Of a DNA stretch of 64,000 nt, positions 1 to 35,147 are shown piece after piece. Source of the stretch: Oribacterium sp. P6A1. Its GTDB lineage: Bacteria; Bacillota; Clostridia; Lachnospirales; Lachnospiraceae. The stretch spans positions 248,001 through 312,000 of the forward strand of contig NZ_JNKO01000002.1 in assembly GCF_000702885.1 (NCBI RefSeq), in the 5' to 3' direction. A program made the translations under genes and the position numbers. The notes beneath the pieces are model-generated. The model saw nothing but the letters and a program-made list of their open reading frames with translations. It was not told the origin of the DNA and did no database searches. Numbering within the stretch: the stretch's first letter is position 1; every line of letters starts with the position of its first letter.

Positions 1-4
1 CCTG

Positions 5-165
5 CCCATGGCTATGTGCTGAGCGCTTGTGCCATGGGGCCTGAATAAAAAAGTGCATAAAGTCCTACGCATGGCTTCGCGCTGACGCGCTTGTACCATG
101 GGGGGCTGAATAAAAAAGTGCATAAAGCCCCACGCATGACTTCGCTGACGCTTTCGTCATGCTGC
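5..165. repeat. Three degenerate tandem hairpin repeats, period 63-65 bp
   Basis: CATG-headed units begin near 7, 70 and 135. A 22-bp segment starting CTGAATAAAAAAGTGC is identical at 41-62 and 106-127. Each unit folds on itself: CCCATGGC (5-12) pairs with GCCATGGG (31-38), CATGG (70-74) with CCATG (96-100), and GCATGAC (134-140) with GTCATGC (156-162). Stem bases differ between units while pairing is kept. The array touches the left window edge, so more units may lie outside. No coding frame is convincing here. A related single hairpin lies inverted at 35083-35115. Confidence 0.75.
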
Positions 166-285
166 AGAAATTCGGAATCCGGCCTGTCGGCCTACTTCCT
201 CATTTCTGTTAGCGTCGCTAAAACAAATACGTCCTTGAACGCAAGCGTTCAGTCCGTTTTTGTTTTGCGACAGGGCTTTATGCAC
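118..285. other. Structured element with 13-bp inverted ends, predicted five-way junction
   Basis: GTGCATAAAGCCC (118-130) and GGGCTTTATGCAC (273-285) are perfect inverted repeats. Between them four consecutive hairpins tile the interior: GCATGAC/GTCATGC (134-140, 156-162); CAGAAAT/ATTTCTG (165-171, 202-208) with inner GGAA/TTCC and GGCC/GGCC; TTAGC/GCTAA (209-213, 217-221); and AAACAAATACG/CGTTTTTGTTT (221-231, 255-265, one mismatch) enclosing GAACG/CGTTC (237-241, 246-250). The layout resembles either a MITE-like non-autonomous element or a multi-branched RNA. Identity unknown; it abuts the rpsT terminator. Confidence 0.55.
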
Positions 286-316
286 TAAAAAAACCAGCGG
301 TGGGTCAACCGCTGGT
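286..316 (-). terminator. Rho-independent terminator of rpsT
   Basis: ACCAGCGGT (293-301) and ACCGCTGGT (308-316) form a 9-bp stem. Read on the minus strand the stem is followed by a run of seven T (286-292). Confidence 0.9.
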
Positions 317-407
317 CTTTGTGAGTAACGTTACTTACAAAGTTTTTTATTTCAAGAACGACTTGAAAAGCAGAAATCCTGATCAAAGATTTCCGGATCA
401 TAGTATA

Positions 408-671
408 TTAGTTCATTGCATCAACAGCCTTATAAAGCTTAGCAACCTTTCTTGAAGCGTTGTTTGACTTAAGAACGCCCTTGCTGTGAGCCATGCTGAT
501 CTTCTTCTGAGCCATCTTAAGAGCATCCTGAGCCTTAGCCTTATCACCAGCCTCTACTGCTGCGTATACTCTCTTGATGTATGTCTTAACTTCTGAACGA
601 ATTGACTTGTTACGCTCATATCTTGTAGCTGCAACAAGGATTCTCTTCTTAGCGGATTTAATGTTTGCCAT
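408..671 (-). CDS. rpsT: 30S ribosomal protein S20
   Basis: This 87-residue basic protein is S20, which binds 16S rRNA in the body of the small ribosomal subunit. The sequence opens MANIKSAKKRI and carries the family's Lys/Arg-rich helical pattern (RNKSIRSEVKTYIKR, then MAQKKISMAHSKGVL), ending at the usual length of 85-90. The ATG at 671 is preceded on its strand by AAAGGAGATATTTCC, a strong ribosome binding site. It is monocistronic, divergent from lepA, with its own promoter (761-789) and terminator (286-316). The rpsT-lepA neighbourhood is common in Firmicutes. Certain call. Confidence 0.98.
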   Translation of the reverse strand: MANIKSAKKRILVAATRYERNKSIRSEVKTYIKRVYAAVEAGDKAKAQDALKMAQKKISMAHSKGVLKSNNASRKVAKLYKAVDAMN

Positions 672-33668: not shown

Positions 33669-35063
33669 ATGGCAAAAGAATACACAATGGACACTATCGT
33701 TTCCCTTGCAAAGTCAAGAGGATTTGTTTATCCGGGTTCTGAGATCTATGGTGGTCTTGCAAATACATGGGACTACGGAAATCTCGGCGTTGAATTAAAG
33801 AACAACGTAAAGAAGGCATGGTGGAAGAAATTCATTCAGGAGTCAAAGTATAATGTAGGCATTGACTGCGCTATACTTATGAATCCACAGACCTGGATCG
33901 CATCAGGACACCTTGCTTCTTTCTCAGATCCTCTTATGGATTGTAAGGAATGTCATGAGAGATTCCGTGCTGACAAGATCATCGAGGATTTTGCGGCTCA
34001 GAATGCTATGGAGCTTAACGGTTCTGTAGACGGCTGGTCAAACGAAGAGATGGAGAAATTCATCGAAGACAACAAGGTAGAGTGCCCAACTTGTGGTAAG
34101 CATAATTTCACAGGTATCCGTCAGTTCAACCTTATGTTCAAGACCTTCCAGGGAGTAACAGAGGATGCAAAGAATGCAGTTTATCTCCGTCCGGAGACTG
34201 CACAGGGTATCTTCGTAAACTTCAAGAATGTTCAGAGAACATCACGTAAGAAGCTTCCATTCGGTATCGGACAGATCGGAAAGTCATTCCGTAATGAGAT
34301 CACTCCGGGTAACTTCACATTCCGTACAAGAGAGTTCGAGCAGATGGAGCTTGAGTTCTTCTGCAAGCCAGATACAGACCTTGAGTGGTTCGCATACTGG
34401 AAGCAGTTCTGTCAGGACTGGCTCCTGAGCCTCGGTATGCCTAAGGAAATGCTTCGTGCAAGAGATCACGAGAAGGAAGAGCTCAGCTTCTACTCAAAGG
34501 CTACAACAGACCTTGAGTTCCTCTTCCCATTCGGATGGGGCGAGCTTTGGGGTATCGCTGACAGAACCGATTATGACCTCGGACGTCATGCAGAGGTTTC
34601 AGGTCAGGATATGACATACTTTGACGATGAGACAAACGAGCATTACATTCCATATGTAGTAGAGCCATCTCTCGGTGCAGACCGTGTAACTCTTGCATTC
34701 CTTTGCGCTGCATACGATGTAGAGCAGCTTGAGGGCGGTGATGAGAGAACAGTACTTCATTTCCATCCGGCTCTTGCACCTGTAAAGATCGGTATCCTTC
34801 CGCTTTCAAAGAAGCTTGCCGAGGGTGCACAGGCTATCCATGACGAGCTTGCCAAGTACTGGTATGTTGAGTACGATGACAGAGGAAACATCGGAAAGAG
34901 ATACAGAAGACAGGATGAGATCGGAACACCTTACTGCGTAACATACGATTTTGATTCAGAGAACGATCACTGTGTTACAATCCGTGAGAGAGATTCCATG
35001 AAGCAGGAGCGTATCCCTATCGATCAGCTTAAGAGCTACTTCGAGGAGAAGCTTGCGTTCTAA
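33669..35063 (+). CDS. glyS: Glycyl-tRNA synthetase (homodimeric class II)
   Basis: Single-chain alpha2 glycyl-tRNA synthetase (GlyQS), 464 residues. The start [20 protein letters not shown] and [17 protein letters not shown], then motif 2 in [31 protein letters not shown], and motif 3 [14 protein letters not shown] are all present; the anticodon-binding domain follows [15 protein letters not shown]. Cys residues ([21 protein letters not shown]) form a zinc-ribbon insertion near residues 95-150. ATG follows AGAAAGAGGAAAAA. The 233-base gap from recO holds short stems (for instance GCCGC/GCGGC at 33639-33654) but no recognisable T-box. Confidence 0.97.
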
Positions 35064-35064
35064 G

Positions 35065-35115
35065 TGCAGATTCAGGTTATCTGCAGCATGGCGGAAGCGC
35101 AAGCGAAGCCATTCG
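35065..35115. repeat. Hairpin repeat related to the 5-165 array, inverted
   Basis: TGCAGAT (35065-35071) pairs with ATCTGCA (35079-35085) right after the glyS stop. It overlaps GCAGC (35083-35087), which begins a unit reading on the minus strand as ATGGCTTCGC...GCGCTTCCGCCAT, GCTGC. The unit at 134-165 reads ATGACTTCGC...GACGCTTTCGTCAT, GCTGC. One stem pair changes from A-T to G-C on both arms, a compensatory change. Confidence 0.6.
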
Positions 35116-35147
35116 TAGGACTTATATGAAATATTGATATAAGCATC

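Follow-up and report, generated by a model that had tools for sequence, protein, structure and literature searches.

A probable MITE-like element, catalogued as Clostridiales-1 RNA, at the rpsT terminator of Oribacterium sp. P6A1

The rpsT locus and the structured element

The window analysed was a stretch of 64,000 nucleotides from Oribacterium sp. P6A1 (contig NZ_JNKO01000002.1, positions 248,001 to 312,000). Near its left edge a structured element of 168 bp lies downstream of the gene for ribosomal protein S20. The features are listed below by window position.

1..117, minus strand: 65-bp tandem repeats made up of hairpin 3, the 3' end and the T-tract (TRF on L007)
111..117, plus strand: direct repeat TAAAAAA, putative target duplication
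118..285, minus strand: the element, 168 bp, with ends GTGCATAAAGCCC and GGGCTTTATGCAC
118..130, plus strand: inverted end; on the minus strand it forms the 3' arm of the closing stem
123..280, minus strand: match to RF01699 Clostridiales-1, model positions 1-166 of 166, 98.3 bits, E 5.8e-21
273..285, plus strand: inverted end; on the minus strand it forms the 5' arm of the closing stem
286..292, plus strand: direct repeat TAAAAAA inside the terminator T-tract of rpsT, putative target duplication
287..320, minus strand: rpsT intrinsic terminator, hairpin 289-320 and T-tract (inverted repeat and sequence)
408..671, minus strand: rpsT, 30S ribosomal protein S20 (TIGR00029)
35030..35124, plus strand: second copy, truncated to hairpin 3 and the 3' arm (22.9 bits and E 4e-4 with model R1)

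The folded unit reads on the minus strand, where the order is rpsT, its terminator, the element, a T-tract and the 65-bp tandem repeats. The ends at 118-130 and 273-285 are perfectly complementary over 13 bp, as originally predicted, or 14 bp when the flanking pair 117/286 is counted. Bases outside the two TAAAAAA repeats differ, so this repeat is exactly 7 bp. On both strands the region 110-295 folded into a far more stable structure than its shuffled counterparts did (-79.7 kcal/mol, z -10.4 on one; -90.3 kcal/mol, z -10.7 on the other), with 0 of 200 shuffles as stable on either. Four hairpins and a five-way junction had been predicted inside the ends. The fold has three hairpin arms and a closing stem, and the junction is therefore four-way. 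A tandem repeat had also been proposed beside the element and is real, with a period of 65 and 2.4 copies at window positions 1-145, reaching inside the element and continuing for approximately 9 bases beyond the left window edge (TRF). The element has no coding capacity; the single ORF of at least 60 amino acids overlapping it (91-288) begins outside. A match to rli38 at 285-425 was judged to be chance (25.6 bits against a cut-off of 49). The truncated copy at 35030-35124 lies directly behind the end of another gene, which we take from its resemblance to encode glycyl-tRNA synthetase.

Family identity and distribution

An Infernal search of the whole window against Rfam placed only one family above threshold, RF01699. 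The score of 98.3 bits exceeds the RF01699 gathering threshold of 48 bits and the full model is covered. Model R1, which was built with this copy included, scored the element at 121.3 bits at 124-280. Because the minus strand matches RF01699, the class is already catalogued, and the original reading of no known class was wrong. RF01699 is labelled in Rfam as an sRNA of unknown function. Three columns of the table describing the motif presumably stand for RNA, cis-regulatory and switch. The Clostridiales-1 row in this 2010 description reads y, n, n (PMC2864571). No account of mobility was found in the accessible part of the original description (PMC2864571), within a narrow literature search.

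The genome of the window (G000) contained 36 RF01699 matches at E<=1e-3, of which 22 were over the cut-off. RF01699 was present in 20 of 41 genomes, this one included, and the richest carried 52 copies (66 with laxer filters). In a sample of the bacterial family 112 of 200 genomes had a match, which in 87 of them exceeded the cut-off; counted by genus this is 111 of 199. Because no more than 13 candidates were scored per genome, copy counts in this sample are lower bounds. It was absent from all 14 control genomes. The search for further copies, set beforehand as a test that could overturn the prediction, thus returned many dispersed copies. By eye, copies with similar interiors sit in unrelated flanks. 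Of the rpsT loci from named genomes, 80 were fetched and 20 scanned, and one carries the element (Lachnospiraceae bacterium JC7, L059). Copy classes were assigned by motif rules of this analysis, which left 14 of 130 copies unclassed.

Several variant arrangements were observed. Tandem arrays of at least four element units occur in G007 and G005 (L188, L179, L183, L237, L238). The array of L188 is flanked by a promoter-like site and by the start of a gene, which we assume to be metA-like. Composite copies (L015, L019, L020, L021, L024, L030) have an extra hairpin sequence in common, for example TGGCAGATTCCGTAGGAATCTGGCA, which seems to be another mobile repeat nested within the element. Weak family matches in L022, L023, L025 and L028 have GATAAAGCC/GATAAGCC and CGTCAAG stretches in common and two of them follow terminators; these are perhaps another subfamily. 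A 197-bp element with ends TGATGTAAGGGTCAAAA and TGATGTGAGTGTCAAAA was found at L305 2350-2546 and in several copies at further places in G010. It is at most a candidate member of RF01699.

Terminal repeats and target duplications

Two end types were distinguished. The window copy has the TGYATAAG type, and a sister type starts with TGAT. The sister type has 17-bp imperfect terminal repeats; its end pattern TGATNNNRGKGTCAWAA matched 109 times in four genomes and the reversed pattern 0 times. Duplications of at least 5 bp flank 8 of 14 sister-type copies. For a held-out set 60 sister copies were fetched from 13 other genera, 51 of them with a recognisable right end. A perfect 5-bp duplication was present in 25 of these 51, compared to 68 of 2000 crossed controls (3.4%). 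The sister target is T-N-N-N-A; of the 25 duplications, 24 begin with T and 23 end with A.

In the TGYATAAG type a 5-bp duplication was found in 0 of 36 copies at boundaries set by a script that placed the end of the window copy too early. Inspection by eye showed a repeat only at the window copy (7 bp) and at the L014/L211/L218 site (approximately 6 bp). Target duplication is well established in the sister type and only suggestive in the type of the window. The window copy itself may have made a duplication, and T-rich repeats beside a terminator can also arise otherwise.

Filled and empty sites

Among 16 rpsT loci with the full gene, the element was present in three (G000, G011 and G015) and absent from 13 at E<=0.01. 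The rpsT site of G016 is empty with the same gene order, as judged from sequence. Downstream of rpsT in G004 (L144) a GTGCA lies between two T-tracts after the terminator and is perhaps the scar of a lost copy. The filled/empty comparison covered 8 of 14 prepared sites, with no call reached at L017 and L030. At L001, L003 and L011 the element is present in G000 and the same loci of the compared relatives gave no model match. The relatives lack the element at L026, where their sequence is a different one. G011 and G015 retain a TGTCAAAAG stretch at the L004 site and may thus hold remnants there instead of a clean empty site. L002 gave no match in its own segment in this comparison.

Covariation and pair types of the stems

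Thirty copies were used to build a model, to which 127 matches from 100 of the fetched loci were then aligned; the 30 are among these 127, a circumstance that favours the structure. In this alignment 92.7% of cells were paired compared to 60.5% in shuffles, and the score was 0.70 compared to 0.19. The other test set for the prediction was whether stem changes are compensated, and two-sided changes were present at 32 of 32 modelled pairs in the model-fitted alignment. A plain sequence alignment of the 30 copies gave two-sided changes at 28 of 32 pairs.

Thirteen orthologous comparisons, which reuse some copies twice, gave 677 pairs without change and 28 with a change on one side; 52 had changed on both sides yet still paired, another 52 were broken and 9 were gapped. 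Whole hairpins differ yet remain paired at orthologous sites. At rpsT this is hairpin 1 in G015 and hairpin 3 in G011, and at rpoC hairpin 1 differs in G011. Orthologous copies at the groEL site also have different hairpins. Between L008 and L228 the outer stem changes from GTGCA/TGCAC to GTGTA/TACAC.

An RNA is expected to tolerate G-U pairs and not A-C mismatches, and these roles swap on the opposite strand. At pairs whose commonest form is Watson-Crick, the ratio of GU to AC was 85:66 in the element stems and 118:32 in RNase P RNA (Fisher's test 4e-5, with related sequences counted as independent). Over all pairs RNase P, taken from 30 genomes of the same relatives, gave 316:32. A-C rates differ little (66 of 3791 cells in the element, 32 of 2467 in RNase P), and the difference lies in fewer G-U pairs. 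The TPP riboswitch, with 8 pairs, gave 29:0 over all pairs and 3:0 where the commonest pair is Watson-Crick; it is too small to serve as the control and RNase P was therefore used. The pair types hint at upkeep as DNA palindromes or at copy-to-copy correction. Conserved positions in the loops of hairpins 2 and 3 would also fit an RNA function.

Association with terminators and promoters

An intrinsic terminator lies directly before 21 of 40 TGYATAAG-type copies on the same strand. The corresponding figures are 37 of 1600 for random positions, 2 of 54 for sister-type copies and 2 of 40 for the opposite side of the TGYATAAG-type copies. With orthologues merged the 40 copies reduce to approximately 31 sites, 17 with a terminator. 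Two terminator-positive copies (L023 and L025) begin with CGATAAAG and not with TGYATAAG. Further copies of this type follow stop codons, for example that of groEL.

Sigma-70-like promoters abut sister-type copies in G007 and, more weakly, elsewhere. At a spacing of 17 only, the -35 signal had z 6.9 on the left (54 copies) and z -1.0 on the right (53 copies). The promoter signal was z 7.2 for the 14 copies from G007 and z 4.2 for 39 further ones. In the 60 held-out copies it fell to z 1.7 on the left, with 0.6 on the right, and did not clearly replicate. As the -35 signal is weak in the held-out genera, promoter targeting is not claimed as general, and transcription-guided targeting would be no more than a possibility. 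A -10-like sequence was enriched in the held-out copies (mean score 7.4 compared to 5.4 at random sites), which the TNNNA target may explain.

Search for a mobiliser

An autonomous partner was sought by scanning for TGATNNNRGKGTCAWAA, without mismatch in four genomes and with two mismatches allowed in 20 fetched regions. Neither scan found an inverted pair around a transposase. No transposase with sister-type ends was found in G000, G010, G018, G024 or G134 using the sister pattern. Two-mismatch end pairs approximately 0.7-1.7 kb apart in L298, L301, L304 and L305 enclose ORFs that looked ordinary by eye. An end pair 1.6 kb apart in G134 encloses an ORF that we presume to be transporter-like. 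A reverse transcriptase was rejected as mobiliser since RVT_1 was unmatched in the copy-carrying genomes G005, G006 and G010 (the last 73% complete). A Y1 transposase was rejected since Y1_Tnp was unmatched in G005, G007, G010, G011 and G015, each with at least 16 copies. As no partner transposase was found, the element is described as MITE-like and not as a proven MITE.

Origin and maintenance of the element

The element is probably a MITE-like non-autonomous DNA transposon of the group filed as Clostridiales-1 RNA. The original prediction offered a MITE-like element or a structured RNA. The first is favoured by the terminal repeats, sister-type 5-bp duplications, copies and filled and empty sites of the family, and is less firm for the TGYATAAG type, with its 0 of 36. 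The second has the Rfam catalogue label in its favour, and the pair types lean to maintenance at the DNA level.

A putative transposase supplied in trans would recognise the inverted ends. It would cut an AT-rich target and leave a short duplication, as observed in the sister type; the window copy is only consistent with this step. Insertion of the window copy, in sense orientation and into the terminator T-tract of rpsT, would predate the divergence of G000, G011 and G015; alternatively, a copy may have been lost from G016. The palindromes of the interior would be maintained, probably through folding of both strands as DNA or through copies correcting one another, and some exchange process could produce the hairpin differences observed between orthologous copies. 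Tandem duplication of tail units follows, as seen in the array beside the window copy. Transcription is likely incidental, with read-through from rpsT expected to yield a folded 3' tail.

A true multi-copy structured sRNA, which acts in trans or forms a stable module of a 3' or 5' untranslated region and whose copies are retained for their usefulness, would account for the strong covariation, the retention of orthologous copies behind rpoC, groEL and secDF in several species and the sigma-70-like promoters abutting TGAT-type copies in G007. The target duplications, the unrelated flanks, GU pairs nearly as rare as AC pairs, the functionally unrelated genes upstream and the patchy presence all argue against it, and it is thought distinctly improbable. 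That the element is no more than a fixed, immobile part of an elaborate rpsT terminator region can hardly be right: it sits exactly at this terminator, but dispersed copies and the empty G016 site contradict the idea.

Insertion of a mobile element could also be directed by transcription, with the terminator type and the promoter type reading the stop and start of transcription units in fixed orientation. This would fit the excess of terminators on one side of the TGYATAAG type and the one-sided -35 signal of the sister type. The weak held-out promoter signal tells against it, as do the dependence among the 40 copies and the different starts of L023 and L025, and an AT-rich TNNNA target with survival outside genes may produce the same picture. 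We regard such direction as unlikely. A wider proposal, and one given little chance of being correct, is that RF01699 as a whole consists of DNA transposons, with selection acting on their branched palindromes at the DNA level, and that both end types enter terminators or promoters in sense orientation, guided by RNA polymerase as it stops or opens. If the MITE-like reading is right, what Rfam lists as an sRNA family should be reclassified as a mobile element, and covariation by itself would not prove RNA function. The symmetry of pair types (G-U against A-C) might then separate DNA palindromes from RNA helices, and the family would be a natural system in which to ask how an insertion comes to sit at terminators.

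Comparison with known systems

REP/RAYT and IS200/IS605-type (Y1) elements are hairpin-rich short repeats, as is the element described here. Derivation from IS200/IS605 or REP was rejected, given the target duplications of the sister type and the lack of a Y1_Tnp match in copy-rich genomes. Group IIC introns insert after terminator hairpins in sense orientation, a position they have in common with the element. Unlike a group II intron, the element has no intron match over the Rfam threshold in the window and RVT_1 was unmatched in some copy-carrying genomes. A group II intron derivative was rejected, with neither an intron core in the window nor RVT_1 in those genomes. RF01699 Clostridiales-1 is the same family in sequence and structure, with a full-length match. 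The accessible part of its description does not mention mobility (PMC2864571), whereas the copies compared here have transposon hallmarks. BOX and RUP of Streptococcus pneumoniae have terminal repeats that pair in the fold and target duplications, and BOX is modular with modules that can be repeated, according to the part of the source consulted (PMC3049150). BOX, RUP and SPRITE are, like the element, short structured repeats, a likeness by description (PMC3049150). Unlike them, the element has three covarying hairpins and is present in 111 of the 199 sampled genera of its family.
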